Source: Bacteroidales bacterium
Lineage (GTDB): Bacteria; Bacteroidota; Bacteroidia; Bacteroidales; UBA10428
Assembly: GCA_016930375.1 (NCBI GenBank)
Contig: JAFGGU010000054.1
Span: 1-64,000, forward strand
DNA length: 64,000 nucleotides
Direction: 5' to 3'
Of the stretch, positions 36,121-45,193 are shown piece after piece. The notes below the pieces were generated by a model, which did not search any database, was not told the origin of the DNA, and saw only the letters and a list, made by a program, of their open reading frames with translations. The translations under genes and the position numbers were made by a program. The first letter of the stretch is position 1. Every line of letters begins with the position of its first letter.

Positions 36121-37485
36121 TCAAAAACCCTGCAGCAATGCGGGGTTTTTGCTGAGGGGCAACCGGAAAGCAAATCTGGATCCTTTCCCGGGGACGGAAT
36201 CAAGCAGGAACTTCCCGCCAAGCATATCCACATAGGCCGCGCTGATTGAAAGTCCCAGACCCATACCGCCATAAGTTCCCATATCGGATTTATCGATCTG
36301 GTAAAACCGGTCAAAAATTCTGGCATGTTCATTCTCGGGAATGCCAATCCCGGTGTCCGAGACATAAAATTCAATCCAGTCATCCTGCATTGTACATCCC
36401 ATCTCGACCGAACCCTTGTACGTAAATTTAAAGGCGTTGTTCAGGAGGTTGGAAATGATACCGATCACTTTGTTTTCATCAATCCTCACACTGCCTTTGC
36501 GAACCGGAAAAGTATTGTTCACACTGAATCCAAGCTTTTTTTTCGTGGCCAGCGGAAGATATTGACGGTACAGGTTATTCAGAATAACATTCAGATCCGC
36601 AGTAGTTTCGTTGATAATGACCTGGCCAGCTTCGATCTGGGATATCTTAAGTATATCATCGATTATGGAAAGCAACTGATTGTTGCTTTGCGATATGATG
36701 TCCATGTAATCCCTTTTCAATTTGGGCGAGATTCCTTCCTGTACGAGAAATCCTGAAAAGCCGATGATGGCATTCAGAGGTGTCCTTATTTCATGAGAAA
36801 TATTATGCAGAAAAGCGGTTTTGAGCTGGCTGCTCTCTTCAGCTTTCTCCATGGCAATTTTTAAATTCCCGAATAAATAAGAATTTTCCAGCGCCAGAGA
36901 AGTGATGTTTGAGAAGGTGCTGAACAGATCGATTTCTTCCTGTTCAAATTCATGTTTTCGTCCGATCGTCCCCATAATGATTACTCCTTCCACTTTCTTT
37001 TGAACCAGCAAAGGGATATAGACGAGTGATCCCAGATTTCTAATTTTTGTAATCAGTCGCTCTTCCTCTGTTAATATAGCCTTCGATACATCGTTGACGA
37101 TAATTGTCGTCGGGGATTCAATGACAGCCTTTATATAGGGATGGTTTTCCAATTTTGCATACCTGAATTCTTCAGGGTATTCTGCCGGAAGCGGGGGGAA
37201 TGTGGCTTCGAGGAACAGGTCTTTTCCCTTGACAAAGTAAATGGCACTTGTATCTGTACCAACCAGATTTGCTGCATTTTCAACAATCTTTAGCAGCACT
37301 TCCTTACTGTCTAATGATTCAAGGAGATGAAGACTCATATTGAAAAGTCTGGCAAGGTCCTTGTTTTTCTTCAATAACTTTTCTTCAGTCTGTTTATGTT
37401 CAGATGTCAGTTCCCTGATATGCTTTTCAAGTTCAAGGATTTTTTTCTTCCAATGCGCATTCTGGTCACCCTTATTTCTTTCCAT
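36121..37485 (-). CDS. Cytosolic GAF-domain hybrid-free sensor histidine kinase
   Basis: This is a 454-residue kinase without membrane helices. An N-terminal coiled coil (about 5-50) leads to a GAF domain (about 55-205), HisKA with the phospho-acceptor in HNISHEIRTPLNA (about 228-240), and HATPase_c with N-box NLLNNAFKFT, DTGIGIP and GMGLGLS. No receiver domain is attached and no response regulator adjoins it, so it is an orphan kinase sensing an internal signal. Its C-terminal codons lie within a bidirectional terminator hairpin. It follows the fused transporter gene by 81 bases on the same strand. Confidence 0.88.
   Translation of the reverse strand: MERNKGDQNAHWKKKILELEKHIRELTSEHKQTEEKLLKKNKDLARLFNMSLHLLESLDSKEVLLKIVENAANLVGTDTSAIYFVKGKDLFLEATFPPLPAEYPEEFRYAKLENHPYIKAVIESPTTIIVNDVSKAILTEEERLITKIRNLGSLVYIPLLVQKKVEGVIIMGTIGRKHEFEQEEIDLFSTFSNITSLALENSYLFGNLKIAMEKAEESSQLKTAFLHNISHEIRTPLNAIIGFSGFLVQEGISPKLKRDYMDIISQSNNQLLSIIDDILKISQIEAGQVIINETTADLNVILNNLYRQYLPLATKKKLGFSVNNTFPVRKGSVRIDENKVIGIISNLLNNAFKFTYKGSVEMGCTMQDDWIEFYVSDTGIGIPENEHARIFDRFYQIDKSDMGTYGGMGLGLSISAAYVDMLGGKFLLDSVPGKGSRFAFRLPLSKNPALLQGF
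36122..36151. terminator. Bidirectional Rho-independent terminator with GNRA loop
   Basis: A 13-base-pair stem has left arm CAAAAACCCTGCA (36122-36134), loop GCAA (36135-36138) and right arm TGCGGGGTTTTTG (36139-36151), with one T-G wobble. The A-run before and T-run after allow termination in both directions. It ends the galK-galM-transporter unit and at the same time encodes the last residues of the histidine kinase on the minus strand. Confidence 0.75.
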
Positions 37486-37566: not shown

Positions 37567-39318
37567 TTATATCACCAAGCCTTTTAAGACCGGGGGTTGC
37601 TTTTCCTCTTTGTGAAATATGTTGTTCAAAATCGATGTTTCCGCCTTGTGCATATTTTCTTCAGAAACACTATAAATGGAGGGATTTCTGATTTCAAACT
37701 TTTCAAGAACCAGGTTCAGTATGTCTTTCCTTATGGATAGGATCAGGCACAAAGCCGGTTTGGCAAGCAGGTTTTCAAGACAGCTGCTCCAACCATGCCC
37801 CTGCAGTTCCAGCCTGCCAATCTCATCGATGATTACAACATCTTTATTCCTGGAGTTCTCAGCAGACAGAATACTTTTGCCCTGTTCCAGGGTCTCTGCA
37901 TTGATTTCATATTTTCCAATACCACCGGGTATTCCATTTTGCTTAATTCTCAAAAAACTCAATTTATTATCAGTCTCAACAAAAACCAGGTCATAACCCA
38001 GTGTTTTACCATCCTGCATAATACGGGGCGCATAAAAGCCCCCGATCAACAAATCTTTGTCCCTTAACCTCTGGAGAAGCCCGACCAAAAAACCTGTTTT
38101 CCCTTCGGAAACATCACCGGTAATGATAAAAACCGGTGCCTGCTGCTGCTTTTTCAGTGCGTTGAAACGGTCTTCCGTATAACTTATTAAAAGTGCCATC
38201 ACATCAGCCGGTTTCTTAATGAAGGTCTTTGCATCCGGCAGGTTGGCAACCACAAACGGGAGTGATTCAAATGCCAGTTCAAGGGCAGCCGGAAGCTGTT
38301 TGAATGTTGATTTCGCTAAAAAATTCCTGATACCGGGATTGTACAATTCCGTTCCCAGGGCCGAAAAGCCAACGATGACAACGGCTGCTCTGAAATTCAT
38401 CTGCAGACCGATGATCAGTCCGTCAGTCCAACGACTCTGGCTGCCATTCAGGGATGATATTAATACGGCGGATAAAACAGTAATCACCACAAAGAAGATC
38501 CAGAACCTGGGGCGTGAAAGCTGACGCATTGCCCGCTTATAACGTGACACCCATAAAGTGATCAAAAGCACCGACACAGGTATCCATATGTATATCGGAC
38601 TTTTATTAATCAGAATGAAAGTCATAACAAGACCTGCAAAGCTCAGTATGAGCCAGCTTGTTGAATAGGGAAAATGAACATCCCGGTTGTTCTGCAACGC
38701 AACAGGCTGTCGTGGGCATACCTGTCCCCTGATATCCTGATTGCCGGCTATGCTCCTCGCCATCTTTACTCCAGCCGCTGCAGCAAACAGGCCGAAAAGT
38801 ATATAAACGGCCAGTAAAATCAGTACCGGTAGCCAAAAAATATCGAATTGCAGGTTTAGTTGTTGTTCGGCATAATTCAGAACGTTTGCATATATTTCAA
38901 CGATATTGTTTCCGTAGTAGATAATGTAGTTGATGATTTTCTGCGTCAGAATCCATGACATGGCCAGGGCAGAACCCAAAAAAAAGCCGGCCAGGTTTCT
39001 TCCCAACAATCTAACGGAAATATCAAGCAATAAAGCCTCCATAACAATGGCCACCATGGGTCCCAAAAGAACAGCGCTTGGCGACATGGTTTTCATCACG
39101 GCGCATATCAGTCCGCTGCGCCAGAACAGTCCCCTGTCTTTCCATTTATAGGCTACCGAGATCATCAGTATCAGTCCGATTGCAGTCAGGATATTTCCTT
39201 TGAAAGGAATATTCAGGTTGTGCAGAAAACTGCCCAGAATGATTTCGGATGCTGCCCAGATGGCACCCAAAATGGATGCCTTCAACCAGACATCGCTGAG
39301 TACATGCCTGTCGTTCAT
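37567..39318 (-). CDS. Fused membrane transporter-NTPase: S-like + EcfT-like + THEP1-like domains
   Basis: This 583-residue protein has an unusual domain order. Residues 1-195 contain about five or six membrane helices, like an ECF substrate-binding S component. Residues 216-395 contain four helices and a C-terminal stretch (LGTELYNPGIRNFL, then ALELAFESLPFVV) resembling the CbiQ/EcfT coupling subunit. Residues 395-560 are a P-loop NTPase with Walker A GDVSEGKT (401-408) and Walker B DVVIIDEIGRLEL (493-505), the THEP1/NTPase_1 pattern. It overlaps the TonB-receptor gene by four bases. I infer that it moves across the inner membrane what the receptor brings in. The S and EcfT assignments are by pattern only. 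Confidence 0.65.
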   Translation of the reverse strand: MNDRHVLSDVWLKASILGAIWAASEIILGSFLHNLNIPFKGNILTAIGLILMISVAYKWKDRGLFWRSGLICAVMKTMSPSAVLLGPMVAIVMEALLLDISVRLLGRNLAGFFLGSALAMSWILTQKIINYIIYYGNNIVEIYANVLNYAEQQLNLQFDIFWLPVLILLAVYILFGLFAAAAGVKMARSIAGNQDIRGQVCPRQPVALQNNRDVHFPYSTSWLILSFAGLVMTFILINKSPIYIWIPVSVLLITLWVSRYKRAMRQLSRPRFWIFFVVITVLSAVLISSLNGSQSRWTDGLIIGLQMNFRAAVVIVGFSALGTELYNPGIRNFLAKSTFKQLPAALELAFESLPFVVANLPDAKTFIKKPADVMALLISYTEDRFNALKKQQQAPVFIITGDVSEGKTGFLVGLLQRLRDKDLLIGGFYAPRIMQDGKTLGYDLVFVETDNKLSFLRIKQNGIPGGIGKYEINAETLEQGKSILSAENSRNKDVVIIDEIGRLELQGHGWSSCLENLLAKPALCLILSIRKDILNLVLEKFEIRNPSIYSVSEENMHKAETSILNNIFHKEEKQPPVLKGLVI

Positions 39319-41306
39319 TTATGAAAATTAAAATGCAATGCCGCATAAAGATTTCGGCCCATCTCGGGGTAGCCTTCATCCAGGGTATAGTTATTATCAA
39401 GCAGATTGTTTACACCGAATTCTGCATCCATAAATCCGGCAAAACGATACGAAATTTCCGCATTGGCAATGGCAAAGGCAGGTGAAATTCTTGAACCATC
39501 ACTGGCATTGAAGCGTTCTGAATTATATTCACCGGATAATTGGACCGTAAGTTTTTCGGCAAAAGTGAATTCTGCGGAAACAAATACTTTGTTTTCCGGA
39601 ACATCCGTAAATAAAAGTTCCGGATTGCTCAGGTTATCACGTTGAATGTAAGAATAAACAGCATAGAGCCTGAAACTCTTATACGGCTGGTAAATCAGAC
39701 TGAGATCAGCACCAGTAAATCGCGATGAACCGGTGTTCTGCATCTGTGACAGGTCATCCAGCACATTGTCCACCGGTTGAATGGTGTTATAGAGGCGGCT
39801 GTAAAACAATTCAGGCCGCAGTTTAAGTTTTTCAGCCACCGTCAGGTTGGCCGCCAGTTCAAGGTTAAGCGCTGATTCTGATGTCAGATCGGGATTCGGA
39901 ATGGCTACGCCAAGGCGGTATGAATACCGGTCTTTCATGGTAGCAAAACGGTTTTTATAGGCGACATTGAAATTTGTTGAAAAGGCATTCGAAAACTGAT
40001 AATAGGCAGCCAGTTGCGCATTGAATGCATCATTTGAATTACCGGGCATATCAGTTATGGTCTGATCAGCAGAATTATAATTCTCAGCTTCTAAGCTGTA
40101 TCTGACATTGTATCCCACACCAGGTATCAGGGTAAGTTTACTGACCGGTTTGTAAACACTTTCAAAGCTGATTGAAACTGTGTTGTCGGCAATGTGTATG
40201 GCAGGTTCACCTTCATTGTGCTCGCTGTGGTTGTCATTTTTCAGGTGTGCCGAGAATCTGAGGGTGTTATTTTTACCTGCATCTCTTGAAAATTCAAGGT
40301 TGCCGCCCAGCGTATAATCCTTGAAGTAGCTGTTAAAGGAATATCCTTTGATTTGCGTAGTGTAGCTATTATCATCATAACTCCTGAGCTTATTTTTAAA
40401 TTCATCAAAGAACAAACGTGCTTTCAGAAAGGATTTCTGCCCGATGGCTGTCTTTGAAATAAAATAAACGCTTTGTTTATCCCAGTATGGCCAGTCCCAA
40501 TAGCGGACCCTGACCGTGTTGTCATCCCCGAGATAAACCGGATTTCCTTTGCTCCCGTGGGAAATAATATAGTTAATAGTGTATTCATCCGTACTATTGG
40601 ATGCATATCCAATTTTCAGGCTTCCTTTAACATCTTTGCGGTAAGAATTGTCGCGTCTGTGGTTATTTTCAAGCGCCGAAGTGTCAAAACCCGCCGACAT
40701 GGGAACAAACTCCCGGTTCAATACGGAGAAACCTGCCTGAATATAAACTTTCCCCATTTTGCTGCCCAGGTTGAGCCGGGCATCATAACCATTGCCGCTC
40801 ATGATACCGGTTTTGGCGCTGATCTCCAATGGATAGGATGGTTTCATGCCGACCAGGTTGATGGCCCCTCCGAGGGTATTGGCACCGTACATCATGGAAG
40901 AAAATCCCTTGGAAACATCTATTTTGGACACGTCGTAGGTGGTAAAGCGGGCCAGGTCCATATAACCATCGTAAGGCACATACACAGGTATGCCATCCAC
41001 AAACACAGGTATACTGCGAATGTCAAAACCTCTCAGGTAAACGGCGCTTTCGTTACGCGGACCCAGGTTGCTAAGCGTAATGGAAGGCAGTATGCCAAGT
41101 GAAGAACTTACATCTTGGGCATTGTATCTGTGCAGCTCATTCGTCCCTATCATTTCCCTGTCAATGGTCCCGGTTATAATGACTTCTCCCAGTTGGAAGG
41201 GTTTCACCGGATAGGCTGCCGTGTCTGTTTCACGCTGCGAGAGGCAATTTAAAGTCAGGGTAAAAAACAGGAATAGCAATGGAATTCTGTTCATTCTGAT
41301 TGTCAT
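39315..41306 (-). CDS. TonB-dependent outer-membrane receptor
   Basis: This is a 663-residue receptor with a signal peptide (cleavage near LSQ, residue 23). The plug domain (about 35-150) has GEVIITGTIDREMIGTNEL, the plug segment GFDIRSIPVFVDGIPVYVP and YGANTLGGAINLVG. A 22-strand-type barrel ends FAALHFNF-like with terminal aromatic residues (ALHFNFHK). No SusD partner is present, so an ion, metal chelate or cofactor is more likely than a glycan. The fused transporter follows with a 4-base overlap. A ModE-box-like palindrome lies just upstream of the ATG, suggesting an oxyanion such as molybdate or tungstate. Confidence 0.85.
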   Translation of the reverse strand: MTIRMNRIPLLFLFFTLTLNCLSQRETDTAAYPVKPFQLGEVIITGTIDREMIGTNELHRYNAQDVSSSLGILPSITLSNLGPRNESAVYLRGFDIRSIPVFVDGIPVYVPYDGYMDLARFTTYDVSKIDVSKGFSSMMYGANTLGGAINLVGMKPSYPLEISAKTGIMSGNGYDARLNLGSKMGKVYIQAGFSVLNREFVPMSAGFDTSALENNHRRDNSYRKDVKGSLKIGYASNSTDEYTINYIISHGSKGNPVYLGDDNTVRVRYWDWPYWDKQSVYFISKTAIGQKSFLKARLFFDEFKNKLRSYDDNSYTTQIKGYSFNSYFKDYTLGGNLEFSRDAGKNNTLRFSAHLKNDNHSEHNEGEPAIHIADNTVSISFESVYKPVSKLTLIPGVGYNVRYSLEAENYNSADQTITDMPGNSNDAFNAQLAAYYQFSNAFSTNFNVAYKNRFATMKDRYSYRLGVAIPNPDLTSESALNLELAANLTVAEKLKLRPELFYSRLYNTIQPVDNVLDDLSQMQNTGSSRFTGADLSLIYQPYKSFRLYAVYSYIQRDNLSNPELLFTDVPENKVFVSAEFTFAEKLTVQLSGEYNSERFNASDGSRISPAFAIANAEISYRFAGFMDAEFGVNNLLDNNYTLDEGYPEMGRNLYAALHFNFHK

Positions 41307-41326
41307 TATGGAAGAATAGGATATTG

Positions 41327-41349
41327 CGTTATTCGATTAAGGAATAACG
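41327..41349. promoter_or_regulatory. ModE-box-like operator upstream of the TonB receptor
   Basis: A perfect inverted repeat, CGTTATTC (41327-41334) and GAATAACG (41342-41349), has a 7-base spacer and lies 21 bases before the receptor ATG. A promoter-like TATCTTCA (41354-41361, minus strand) is just upstream, so the repeat would cover the transcription start and suit repression. The E. coli modA operator, as I recall it, has the same outer halves CGTTAT...ATAACG with 12 bases between; here there are 11. The neighbouring ModE-type gene is the likely binder. Confidence 0.55.
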
Positions 41350-41406
41350 GTGGTGAAGATATAAATTCCTTCCAAGACAACAAAATCTTTGGTTACCCCA
41401 AAAGAG

Positions 41407-41757
41407 TTATAAATTCAGACACCTGGTCTGCGCATCCAAAAAAACAATGAATTCCTCTTCCGTTTTTTCAAATTTTCCAAGAATTTCCTTCCCAAACGGG
41501 GTGATCTGGGCAATGCCGCCTTGTCTGCCTCCCCGTTTAAGAACAATCAGCGGCGTTCCGGCGGCTTTATTCATCTGGTTCAGGCTATACCAGGCTTTTC
41601 TGTAGGAAAGATTCATTTCTTTTGCTGCTTTTCGCAGGGAGCCGAGTTCGGATGTTTTCTTCAGCAAATGTACCTTGCCCTCCCCCAACAGGGTTTTATG
41701 GTGAATCTCTATCCAGATACGTCCCCTTACGGTATATGTTATATTCTCGGTATCCAT
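41407..41757 (-). CDS. ModE-type winged helix-turn-helix regulator (DNA-binding domain only)
   Basis: This roughly 116-residue protein corresponds to the N-terminal winged-helix domain of ModE: GRIWIEIHHKTLLGEGKVHLL, broken here after GRIWIEIHHK, then GSLRKAAKEMNLSYRKAWYSL and the wing KRGGRQGGIAQIT. ModE is the molybdate-responsive repressor of molybdate transport in proteobacteria. The two C-terminal molybdate-binding (MOP) domains are missing, so ligand sensing must differ. The ATG at 41757 was preferred to a TTG inside the previous gene. It follows the 1141-residue gene by 10 bases and precedes the TonB-receptor gene by 100 bases. Confidence 0.78.
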   Translation of the reverse strand: MDTENITYTVRGRIWIEIHHKTLLGEGKVHLLKKTSELGSLRKAAKEMNLSYRKAWYSLNQMNKAAGTPLIVLKRGGRQGGIAQITPFGKEILGKFEKTEEEFIVFLDAQTRCLNL

Positions 41758-41767
41758 TATTATCCTA

Positions 41768-44700
41768 TCATTCAAGGGTCAGATGAACATATATTTTGCT
41801 TATTTTTCCTTCCCTATTGAAAATAGAATGGCTGTTTACTTTGTCAATAGCAGATCCCTGGATATTCAGAGAATTCCCGTTGTTCAAGATCAGGTCTATT
41901 CCTTTTTTACCGTCAAGCAGGTAAATTACCTGAACTTTGCAGTAAGTAAAATAAAGATGCGGCACCGAATGGCCATGGGAATTTTTTGTTCCCGGGAGAA
42001 TAAATTCATCCTTTTTCAAAACGACAGGATTAAAGGATATTTGTCCGTTATGTACAATCAGGCCAAGCTCAAAGAACCGGCTTATAACATCTTCCTTCAC
42101 CTGACCGGTCATACCCGGTTGCTGCACCCCAGCCATCCGGGGTGTATGGGAGTATGGATCAATCGGGAAGGCCCCGTATTTATCAGGCGTTTTATGAACT
42201 CCTATGCCTTCCTTTACCTCGGTATAATGTTCCGCAAGCCTGAGAAGGGTATCTTTGAAGGCACCATTATTTCTGGCTTGTTCAATGTTTTCGCCAATCG
42301 CGAGCAACAGTTTGGAAACCATATGCCAGTATATTGAACCCAGCCCTTCATACTTATAGAAAGTACCTGATCTACCAGTAAACGATTGATGATCAAATAT
42401 TTTCTCATATACCGCCATTACCGATTTGATCTCCTCCGGCATAACTTTTGCAACTGCTGTATCAGCAAGCTTCTGCAGTGCTTTTTTCAGAAAACCTGCA
42501 TTATTGAATGTACCATTAAAATGGTACTGACCTCTGGTATCTCTGGCAATTATACTTGTATCGCCCATTTCAATCAATTTCGACAACAGTGGAATTCTCT
42601 TAACATCTTCAGGGGGCACAATATTCTTTTCAAGAAACCAGGGCAATCTCTTGTCCGGATAGAGAATATAGCTTTCCTGATCCGCACGGTACAACTTGCT
42701 ATTTCTCATGGTATCGAGCACTTCCAGTGCCTCTTCGGGTGAAAGTTTGCCGGAACTGAGCACTGAAACCTGTCCTTCAAGCATCTCATACAAATGCCTG
42801 ATTGAAAAGCCGTCGTCACCGATAGTTAATAGATTATAAGCATTGTAGAGTTTATCTGTTCTTTTGTTTGCAACAATACTCTGGTCTATAAAAGCTTGAG
42901 CTGTTTTGAGAAATTCAATGAGGTACTGCTTCTTTACAGAAGTCCTTTTACCGGAAAATCCTTTGTATGCTTTAGCTCTGAAATCGCTTCCCACATTGCC
43001 AAGTTGGTCTGCCAGAAGCTTACGCTGCGTGTCGTTGAATCCATCTTTGAGCAATGATTCATTCTCTTTCAGGGCATCATCAATTGCAGAAAGGAAGTCT
43101 GCCATTTCTTCTGTAATCTCAAGGCTTGTATGAGAAAATGTCGAAAACAACCCGGTCATAAAATGAATGAACCGCCTCATATAATAGAGCGTAACCATGG
43201 ATACGCCATACCCGACCAGCGCATTGTTGGCATCGTTCCATTCGGGACGCAAGGTATTCATCCAGATGCCCGCCTCGGGGATAAAATTGCTAAGCTTGGA
43301 TAACAGCGGGGCCAGAATTTTTTCGGTAAGATTAACCTTGAATACCAAACCCGATTCATCAAGCAGCAATTTGCCATCTGCTCCCATCCGGGCCACAATT
43401 TCATCTATTTTTTGATGGGCATCAAAATCGAAGACAATAGAATCATGCGGGTTATCAACAATCTCCTGATAAGATTTAATCCGGTAAGGAATATTGGCAT
43501 ATGCAAACATATCCTTGACCAGCCATGAATTCAGATGTCCCGGAAAATATTTTTCCGATACCTCCATCAATTTTAGCAGATAAATTATCTGGTGATCACC
43601 CCAATAGCCGATATTCGAGAACGGATTACCGGGTTCAGGAACTTCCCAGTCTATGCCATCGCGGGTTACACGATACGGATTGTATCCATCGGCCGATGAA
43701 GCATTCACGAACTTGGCGATCATACCGTTTACATAACCGGGATAAGACAATGCCAATGCCTCCCAATTCTGGAAAATATCGCGCCAATTACCCTGGTAAT
43801 ATAGCAACTTATTGCCGCCTGCATCTTTAATGTTTATCGAAAAAAGGTTCCATGGGCGGCTTGGATCGCCATGCCTCCGGCTGAAGGTAAGCGGCAGATA
43901 TTCAAGAAACAGTCGATATAGATCTTCATCACCCTCTTTGGTTATTATTGTATCGAGCTCTTCATATTTGAGACTGGCAGGTAACTGATCGAAGAGTTTC
44001 AGGTGTCTTTCCAGCAATTGTTTATTAAAGTGCTTGATATGTTTGATGAAATCACCTTTATCAATAGAATATCCCTCGCTGAATATGCCCCCCCGCATCA
44101 CATTGAACAGAACATTCGAAAAGTGCCTTGAGACCACAAGCTTGTCGGATGAATCCTGAATACCATCTGCATCGGCAACAATAGCTTTCAGGTTAAGGGT
44201 GCCCTCCTGAATGTTTTTTTCAAGCTCGCCAATTTTATCCTTGGTCCCTGACAAAAAATCAATAAGGTTATTCACTTTCACCGAATCCTGGTTGACCTCG
44301 GCAGCAAAATACCATGTCTTGCTTTCGCCGGCATTGAGTGCAATGTTGGCGTTTGCAAAGAATGCCCCTTTTACTCCTTTTGATTCCAGCTCTTCAACAA
44401 CTTCTTTTCCCTTTCTGAATGGTACCAGTTGTCTTGAACTTAACAGAAAAATATTATTTTCGAGCCCGCAAGTCCATACCGTTGTAACTTTGAGCGCCTC
44501 ACTTGGTTCGGCTTTATCAACTGGAATAGATTCGAGGCGGAATAATCCCAGCGAATATTCTTTCACAAGCTCGGATTTTTTATAACCGTCGAGCAAGGTG
44601 GAAAACTGGTTTTGCATAAACCTCTCAACTCCATAAGGTAACAGGTTTTGCAGGCCATCGATCATTTCTACCCTCACTGATTCCAGTGATGTGTTCACCA

Positions 44701-45193
44701 GGATACTTTTCCTGATCCAACCGAAATGATCAGAATTCATCCAGCCATACCGAAAGGACAATCCCAAATCGAGGTTGTTTTCTTCGAAAATGAGCTTATT
44801 GCCACAAGTATTTTTGTACAGGTTCCTTTCGGTTTTGTACACACCTTCATACCTATCGGAAAAAGGCTCCCACAAATATTTTTTGCCTTTTGACGATACC
44901 CTGAAAATTGATTTACTCCCGGTTATCTCTGCTGATTCCTGAAGTTTATCATCTGTATAATATGGGAATAAGGCGCTTTCGGGGTTGATCCTGCCTGCTG
45001 ACAAACCACCGGTGCTGGCAATAAACATCCAGTGGTCAGAATCACTGGCAAGACTCATAAAAAACGGCAACATCGAATCGAAATTCCTGATTTCATAGAA
45101 ATCTTCCCCATCCATTGTCACAAATTTACCTTTAACTTCTTTCTCCCATGTCTGGAATACATTCTTACCGATCAATAATTCATTTTCAGCCAT
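41768..45193 (-). CDS. Large six-hairpin glycosidase/phosphorylase-like protein (GH94-like)
   Basis: This is a cytosolic 1141-residue protein without signal peptide. The first about 300 residues look like a beta-sandwich domain. The middle (about 340-760) looks like an (alpha/alpha)6 barrel, with YYQGNWRDIFQNWEALA and IGYWGDHQIIYLLKL in the style of six-hairpin glycosidases, and TLRPEWNDANNALVGYG recalling the WND motif of GH94 phosphorylases. The last about 350 residues match nothing I recognise. It is the third gene after a sugar porter and a mutarotase-like gene, so intracellular breakdown of an imported oligosaccharide is likely. The reaction is not known. Confidence 0.5.
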   Translation of the reverse strand: MAENELLIGKNVFQTWEKEVKGKFVTMDGEDFYEIRNFDSMLPFFMSLASDSDHWMFIASTGGLSAGRINPESALFPYYTDDKLQESAEITGSKSIFRVSSKGKKYLWEPFSDRYEGVYKTERNLYKNTCGNKLIFEENNLDLGLSFRYGWMNSDHFGWIRKSILVNTSLESVRVEMIDGLQNLLPYGVERFMQNQFSTLLDGYKKSELVKEYSLGLFRLESIPVDKAEPSEALKVTTVWTCGLENNIFLLSSRQLVPFRKGKEVVEELESKGVKGAFFANANIALNAGESKTWYFAAEVNQDSVKVNNLIDFLSGTKDKIGELEKNIQEGTLNLKAIVADADGIQDSSDKLVVSRHFSNVLFNVMRGGIFSEGYSIDKGDFIKHIKHFNKQLLERHLKLFDQLPASLKYEELDTIITKEGDEDLYRLFLEYLPLTFSRRHGDPSRPWNLFSINIKDAGGNKLLYYQGNWRDIFQNWEALALSYPGYVNGMIAKFVNASSADGYNPYRVTRDGIDWEVPEPGNPFSNIGYWGDHQIIYLLKLMEVSEKYFPGHLNSWLVKDMFAYANIPYRIKSYQEIVDNPHDSIVFDFDAHQKIDEIVARMGADGKLLLDESGLVFKVNLTEKILAPLLSKLSNFIPEAGIWMNTLRPEWNDANNALVGYGVSMVTLYYMRRFIHFMTGLFSTFSHTSLEITEEMADFLSAIDDALKENESLLKDGFNDTQRKLLADQLGNVGSDFRAKAYKGFSGKRTSVKKQYLIEFLKTAQAFIDQSIVANKRTDKLYNAYNLLTIGDDGFSIRHLYEMLEGQVSVLSSGKLSPEEALEVLDTMRNSKLYRADQESYILYPDKRLPWFLEKNIVPPEDVKRIPLLSKLIEMGDTSIIARDTRGQYHFNGTFNNAGFLKKALQKLADTAVAKVMPEEIKSVMAVYEKIFDHQSFTGRSGTFYKYEGLGSIYWHMVSKLLLAIGENIEQARNNGAFKDTLLRLAEHYTEVKEGIGVHKTPDKYGAFPIDPYSHTPRMAGVQQPGMTGQVKEDVISRFFELGLIVHNGQISFNPVVLKKDEFILPGTKNSHGHSVPHLYFTYCKVQVIYLLDGKKGIDLILNNGNSLNIQGSAIDKVNSHSIFNREGKISKIYVHLTLE

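Follow-up and report, generated by a model that had tools for sequence, protein, structure and literature searches.

What does an operon import that combines a ModE-type DNA-binding protein, a TonB-dependent receptor and a polypeptide in which membrane segments are joined to an NTPase? Three such genes lie side by side on the minus strand of the window (the whole 64,000-nucleotide stretch of Bacteroidales DNA analysed here), and the initial annotation had read them as an uptake system for molybdate or tungstate. The molybdenum cofactor (Moco) is regarded as made by each cell for itself. A search of the full text of 5.4 million open papers found no description of a Moco importer and, on Moco uptake, one speculative sentence concerning outer-membrane proteins of another kind. 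We propose, with a probability of roughly 55%, that the operon encodes an importer, under ModE control, by which molybdopterin or Mo-molybdopterin is salvaged.

Organization and predicted control of the operon

An open reading frame check of the window gave the same positions for the three genes as the initial annotation (Table 1), with a TTG at 41775 as an alternative start of the ModE-type gene, and located the four-base overlap of the receptor and transporter genes at an ATGA (39315–39318). Family searches likewise agreed with its description of a ModE-type gene without molybdate-binding domains, a TonB receptor without SusD (no SusD gene was found anywhere in the 64-kb window) and a chain uniting membrane and NTPase parts.

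Table 1. Positions in the window of the operon's genes, the domains of the transporter and the candidate operator
Feature	Position	Strand	Basis or remarks
ModE-type winged-helix DNA-binding protein	41407..41757	-	116 aa; TIGR00637 and PDB ModE chains
ModE-box-like candidate operator, CGTTATTCGATTAAGGAATAACG	41327..41349	.	between the ModE-type and receptor genes, 21 bases before the receptor start
TonB-dependent outer-membrane receptor	39315..41306	-	663 aa; PF07715 plug
One-chain ECF-like transporter (S-like, T-like and THEP1-like NTPase domains)	37567..39318	-	583 aa; AF2 models, fold matches, conservation
S-component-like membrane domain, residues 7–205	38704..39300	-	VIA-align to 5edl
T-component-like membrane domain, residues 216–392	38143..38673	-	VIA-align to 4rfs_T
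THEP1-like P-loop NTPase domain, residues 397–563	37630..38130	-	PF03266; VIA-align to 1ye8

The ModE-type protein matched TIGR00637 (ModE_repress) with an E-value of 4.9e-19 and 68.2 bits, below the 98.5-bit cut-off of that model, and also matched ModE chains in the PDB (2ijl, E 1.7e-15; 1b9m and 1o7l, E 7.5e-10); the two comparisons identify a ModE winged-helix DNA-binding domain. Domain and profile searches found no MOP/TOBE molybdate-binding domain in the 116 residues, and ModE proteins consisting of the DNA-binding part only have already been described (PMC545781). Homologues of the protein are encoded in 13 other loci of the transporter family.

The half-sites and spacing of the candidate operator are equal to those of the E. 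coli ModE consensus, ATCGNTATATA-N6-TATATANCGAT (PMC545781), so that the likeness to E. coli ModE extends to the operator as well as to the DNA-binding domain, whereas the molybdate-binding domains are absent from the Bacteroidales protein. In 1.78 Mb of related loci the pattern CGTTAT-N11/12-ATAACG occurred at 15 exact sites (two of which come from one genome fetched twice, L036 and L137), compared with 0–1 in ten shuffles. Thirteen of the 15 lie just upstream of the operon's receptor, DUF364 or transporter gene, and some precede the operon at loci where no modE gene was seen. No box was found before the PhsA operon of the source genome, allowing at most one mismatch. As a prediction from sequence, control by molybdenum is supported within the window most directly by the box at the target operon.

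The receptor carries a plug domain (PF07715, E 8.7e-17), matches TIGR01785 over residues 48–661 at a score below that model's cut-off, and is weakly similar to heme, siderophore and BtuB receptors. We therefore class it as a TonB-dependent receptor with a plug and a predicted beta barrel, the barrel being assigned by similarity. In about ten loci, a close homologue stands immediately before the gene for the transporter or for DUF364.

Two further genes flank the operon. That for a GAF-histidine kinase (36121–37485, minus strand) starts 81 bases beyond the stop codon of the transporter gene, in the same orientation; as relatives rarely have a gene of this kind nearby, it is probably unrelated. 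On the other side, a gene for a 1141-residue protein (41768–45193, minus strand) sits in a sugar-use region adjoining the operon. Its product is similar over its full length to a solved beta-1,3-oligosaccharide phosphorylase (6hq6) and has no Pfam match at E <0.01.

An ECF-like chain with a THEP1-type NTPase

The C-terminal domain of the transporter was readily identified as a THEP1-type NTPase: it matches PF03266 (NTPase_1) over residues 397–563 with an E-value of 5.2e-21 and 75.7 bits (curated cut-off 23.9), contains Walker A (GDVSEGKT) and Walker B (VVIIDEIG) motifs, and resembles the fold of THEP1 (1ye8) with a VIA-align Z-score of 17.4. It differs from stand-alone THEP1, which to our knowledge has no assigned transport role, in being fused behind membrane domains.

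Residues 1–390 gave nothing convincing in Pfam. An assignment of residues 1–190 to an S component and 215–390 to EcfT was set down ahead of the fold search, for which an AF2 model restricted to the membrane half (pLDDT 87.6, the other model having 87.4) was compared by VIA-align with 998 PDB chains. The best match over residues 7–205 was 5edl, the thiamine S component YkoE of a group I ECF system (Z 12.5, rmsd 7.4, 174 residues aligned), a score that is not beyond doubt since a helical bundle can reach about 13 by common arrangement alone. The second best, over residues 216–392, was 4rfs_T, the EcfT of a pantothenate ECF transporter (Z 6.7, rmsd 5.5, 169 residues aligned), and all remaining chains scored 5.7 or less. 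Residues 7–205 are thus predicted to have the fold of an ECF S component; substrate binding is not part of that match.

Sequence comparison pointed in a similar direction at a lower level. The T-like region scored 21.3 against CbiQ in local profile comparison versus at most 16.9 in 12 control families (P 0.024), and the S and T profiles scored best, among the families tried, against CbiM and CbiQ of the same order, though weakly (P 0.01–0.03) and without reaching significance. No Pfam CbiQ match was found in the transporter family, Foldseek searches with the whole chain or the membrane half returned only THEP1 and generic transporter rows, and the membrane-part sequence profile gave nothing meaningful against the PDB.

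An alignment of 91 sequences revealed twelve invariant positions in the S-like domain (W21, E25, G29, H33, N34, P38, G63, K76, P80, S81, P87 and I91) and three in the T-like domain (G304, R310 and E324). If the NTPase is cytoplasmic, then according to the order of helices in the model H33, N34, K76 and S81, with the neighbouring P38 and P80, should be located in loops facing the periplasm.

In the modelled domain order, S-T-NTPase, the chain follows the layout of ECF systems but has an NTPase of another type where their ABC motor would be, and the S-like and T-like folds of the membrane half uphold the initial reading of the protein as a one-chain inner-membrane transporter. Among the relatives' loci, no gene for an ABC ATPase (EcfA-type) recurs directly beside the transporter. 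We use the term 'ECF-like' and do not assign the protein to the ECF transporters, since it lacks their defining ABC ATPases and its attached NTPase belongs to PF03266/THEP1. A literature search for a link between THEP1 and ECF systems found nothing relevant.

Distribution and gene neighbourhood

We surveyed 148 genomes, in which the transporter is present in 41 and absent from 107. Elsewhere in the order, about 25 genomes encode the fusion at full length (30–54% identity); they represent genera of many of its families. Cultured hosts with the fusion include Maribellus luteus (L078) and Lutibacter sp. B1 (L086). In the genome collection, at least 533 stretches encode relatives, the best 80 being nearly all from Bacteroidota. 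With the fused protein this widely conserved, the observation is not due to chance. No other surveyed genome of the source genome's genus or family has the fusion, which was therefore probably acquired in the source lineage.

In 11 genomes the membrane part is an unfused, separate gene of ~400 codons. Ten of these 11 also have a separate THEP1 gene, whereas two of the 107 genomes that lack the membrane part do (Fisher 7e-12). This association ties the NTPase to the membrane part.

Genes that recur near the transporter encode DUF364, MobA, MocA, XdhC, xanthine dehydrogenase, PhsA-type molybdoenzymes, TatC and ModE. Counting genes no more than 500 bp away from the transporter, we found across 118 loci DUF364 40 times, MobA eight, MocA seven, PhsA six, MoeA, XdhC and xanthine dehydrogenase two each and MobB once, while MoaA, MoaC, ModB and WtpA had no occurrence. 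These neighbours and the ModE boxes sustain the initial view of a molybdenum-linked uptake system under a ModE-type protein.

The DUF364 gene, which lies directly upstream of the transporter in about 40 loci, is present in 23 of the 41 transporter genomes and nine of the 107 others (148 genomes; Fisher 3e-9); none was found in the source genome. The family is named for heavy-metal chelation, and the paper on its structure suggested a flavin- or pterin-like substrate and a context of metal transport (PMC2954201).

The transporter in genomes without cofactor synthesis

The 148 genomes were scored for the transporter, MoaA, MoeA, ModB-type permease and molybdopterin oxidoreductase, and the co-occurrence lists were compiled by hand from the separate scorings. 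For MoaA (TIGR02666) the threshold was chosen in a gap between about 235 and about 105 bits, and one genome with a split gene (G090, 144 bits) was counted as positive. Most genomes are MAGs; an assembly gap could account for a missing gene in an individual genome but hardly in every one.

MoaA is present in 28 of the 41 transporter genomes and absent from 13. These 13 belong to 13 different families (eight are at least 95% complete); 11 of them also lack MoeA, none has a ModB/Wtp-type permease, and every one encodes a PF00384 protein. By a strict count, which leaves out PF00384 matches of ~1160–1255 residues (NuoG/FDH-like and ActB-like) that may not need Moco, a PhsA/PsrA-type enzyme is present in 12 of the 13, whereas three of the 72 genomes lacking both MoaA and the transporter have one (Fisher 4e-11). 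The pattern was repeated in 50 other named genomes that carry the fusion: MoaA is missing from 20, of which 19 have a PF00384 molybdopterin-family enzyme. The PhsA proteins keep a cysteine aligned with the Mo-ligand region of the T. thermophilus enzyme 2vpw and carry a Tat signal, and should for these reasons need cofactor that is loaded in the cytoplasm.

The difference can be seen within a single genus, where one genome (G146) has MoaA and MoeA and another (G029, 99% complete) has neither, while retaining MobA, transporter membrane part and PhsA in one gene row (MobA-TM-PhsA, L060). Enzymes for finishing the cofactor stand in gene rows of other MoaA-less genomes as well: MobA at L062 and L071 (the latter TBDR-TM/THEP1-MobA-PhsA) and MoeA with MogA at L034 and L074 (both TBDR-DUF364-TM/THEP1-MoeA-MogA).

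The source genome (G000, 85% complete) yielded no MoaA, MoeA, MoaE or ModB. The initial annotation had remarked on the absence of classical ModABC genes from the window; in the assembly, no ModB/Wtp-like permease was found (best E 1.9e-17, far below the cut-off). Contig C54 of this genome carries a PhsA-FeS-NrfD-YeeE gene row (L157). This row (L157:4207-9781), which comprises genes for PhsA-like, FeS and NrfD proteins, two YeeE/YedE-type membrane proteins and rhodanese-like proteins, is conserved at L158–L168 and is apparently, judging from its genes, a sulfur-respiration module common in these Bacteroidales.

Permeases of the Wtp/Mod type are found in 23 of the 28 MoaA-positive transporter genomes (five have no ABC permease). 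Most genomes that make the cofactor possess such a binding-protein ABC permease, often encoded beside AOR, moaA, moaC and moeA. The idea that the transporter replaces modABC therefore held in part: only one of 21 genomes has both the transporter and classical ModB, but Wtp-type permeases coexist with it. The expected co-occurrence with molybdopterin enzymes was similarly found, in all 13 MoaA-less hosts, but did not bear out an oxyanion cargo.

Two other candidates were set aside. Nitrogenase, as a molybdenum user in the 13 MoaA-less genomes, gave no match over the cut-off, and MoaE was dropped as a marker of Moco synthesis, being absent also from three of four MoaA-positive controls. Since MoaE is missing in some genomes that have MoaA, which points to unrecognised steps of the pathway in this order, the absence of MoaA is no strict proof of an inability to make the pterin.

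A proposed salvage importer and its alternatives

From the computed genes, fusion, folds, operator, neighbours and co-occurrence we infer the cargo, the direction of transport, the NTPase as motor and the signal of the regulator as follows. The TonB receptor would take a scarce, bulky cofactor compound across the outer membrane, the cargo being a pterin form, perhaps after loss of its nucleotide. The S-like domain would bind it on the periplasmic side, the T-like domain would couple its passage, and the fused THEP1-type NTPase would power transport, a task that falls to ABC ATPases in ECF systems. In the cytoplasm, MogA and MoeA could insert molybdenum and MobA or MocA add the nucleotide, and the finished cofactor would go to a Tat-exported PhsA/PsrA-type enzyme or one of the xanthine-dehydrogenase type. 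DUF364 may be a pterin-handling helper in many relatives, and the ModE-type protein would bind the palindrome before the receptor gene. Co-occurrence and gene context bear indirectly on the putative binding and transport of Moco or molybdopterin. In the 28 hosts with MoaA, salvage would be supplementary rather than the sole source.

The cargo is where this proposal parts from the initial annotation. For MoaA-less hosts that keep a cofactor enzyme, uptake of the oxyanion by itself would yield no cofactor, whereas a pterin importer would suffice, and the presence of the transporter in many molybdoenzyme genomes without MoaA, and usually without MoeA or an ABC permease, speaks against free molybdate or tungstate. 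Import of the free oxyanion, with the pterin made by the cell (by an unrecognised route in MoaA-less genomes), nevertheless ranks second, as an unlikely reading that would explain the ModE box and ModE-type protein, the near-exclusion with ModB, the five MoaA-positive hosts without ABC permease and the two MoeA genes adjoining the transporter; MoeA/MogA beside some copies would fit a molybdate importer equally well, and because the Wtp operon of MoaA-positive genomes is often found with tungsten AOR, a separate route for molybdate is thinkable. It has to contend with the molybdopterin-family enzymes of all 13 MoaA-less hosts (mostly without MoeA), with the permeases that most MoaA-positive hosts already own, with the lack of mod/wtp or moaA/moaC genes next to the transporter, and with the ligands of known ECF S components, which are vitamins or metal cations. 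A scarce, bulky cofactor is a better match than a small anion for a TonB receptor and for an S domain of the ECF type, and this fit, the co-occurrence and the rows with finishing enzymes place salvage first, even though the oxygen lability of Moco counts against salvage from a putative free external pool. A molybdophore-like chelate of molybdenum or tungsten, from which molybdate is freed inside, would suit the relation of the receptor to siderophore and cobalamin receptors, the ModE control and the name of DUF364 and its link to metal transport (PMC2954201), but is quite improbable given the many hosts without a Moco pathway and the absence of a chelator-biosynthesis cluster among the recurrent neighbours. 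Least probable is that the system carries a queuosine precursor or some other compound resembling a pterin or deazaguanine: ECF-type QueT transporters exist, and about six loci have a QueA-type gene close to the gene for the transporter or THEP1, yet QueA is confined to one sub-lineage, while ModE boxes, MobA, MocA, XdhC and molybdoenzymes recur throughout the family.

A separate question, compatible with either cargo, is whether the membrane part transports while the THEP1-like domain acts as a MobB-like handler of nucleotide or cofactor rather than as a motor. We consider this somewhat unlikely. It draws on a fusion of THEP1 with MobA that immediately precedes the phsA operon in one genome (MobB-MobA fusions are found elsewhere), on weak MobB matches in 15 family members and on the NTPase gene being separate in 11 genomes. 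Against it stand the fusion of the NTPase to the end of the T-like domain, the place at which an ECF system requires an ATPase, the co-occurrence of separate THEP1 and membrane-part genes described above, and the fact that no other ATPase gene recurs directly beside the transporter.

The wider proposal, that dedicated uptake of Moco or molybdopterin is widespread in Bacteroidota, some of which would be Moco auxotrophs, by a single-chain ECF-like importer with a THEP1-type NTPase motor, we put forward tentatively, at a little short of even odds. If it is true, Moco would be a shared good like B12 and other vitamins, and many anaerobic Bacteroidota would be hidden Moco auxotrophs living on cofactor released by neighbours, a question that G029, G053, G074 and G077 make directly testable. 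The S-T-NTPase chain, if right, would show that a motor other than an ABC ATPase can drive ECF-type import, and would assign a function to the THEP1 family.

Comparison with known systems

The system resembles group I ECF importers (YkoEDC, CbiMNQO, BioYMN) in the predicted order of its S-like and T-like domains, its micronutrient scale and its dedicated components in one operon; it differs in having S, T and NTPase parts in one chain, a THEP1-type NTPase instead of a pair of ABC ATPases, and no significant match to their sequence families. With ModABC, WtpABC and TupABC it has in common ModE-type control and a molybdenum context, but it is not an ABC molybdate/tungstate importer: the transporter lacks a binding protein, BPD permease and ABC ATPase, its loci contain no ModB or WtpA gene, and the system has a TonB receptor and occurs in genomes without Moco synthesis. 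A parallel in salvage logic is BtuB with the inner-membrane importers of cobalamin, where a TonB receptor likewise feeds a high-affinity cofactor importer; here, BtuFCD is absent and the neighbours are molybdenum-cofactor rather than cobalamin genes.

Additional observations

Several features of related loci were recorded in the course of this work. The gene for the THEP1-type NTPase fused to MobA (L189:6907-8091, genome G096) lies directly upstream of a phsA-type gene row and, as a sequence observation, suggests a role of THEP1 in Moco handling. The queA-type genes near a THEP1 or membrane-part gene (L055, L056, L057, L059, L061 and L189) belong to the lineage with the unfused form. Three genomes (G115, G027 and G086; L187, L186 and L191) have MoaA, MoeA and MOSC-MogA-type genes but no detected MoaE (PF02391), so that in Bacteroidales of this type the molybdopterin synthase step may be carried out by something else. 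Finally, L182–L185 contain a cluster of a Wtp/Mod-type ABC importer, tungsten aldehyde ferredoxin oxidoreductase, moaA, moaC, moeA and MOSC-MogA, and L182 encodes another bare ModE-type HTH protein (L182:5196-5618).
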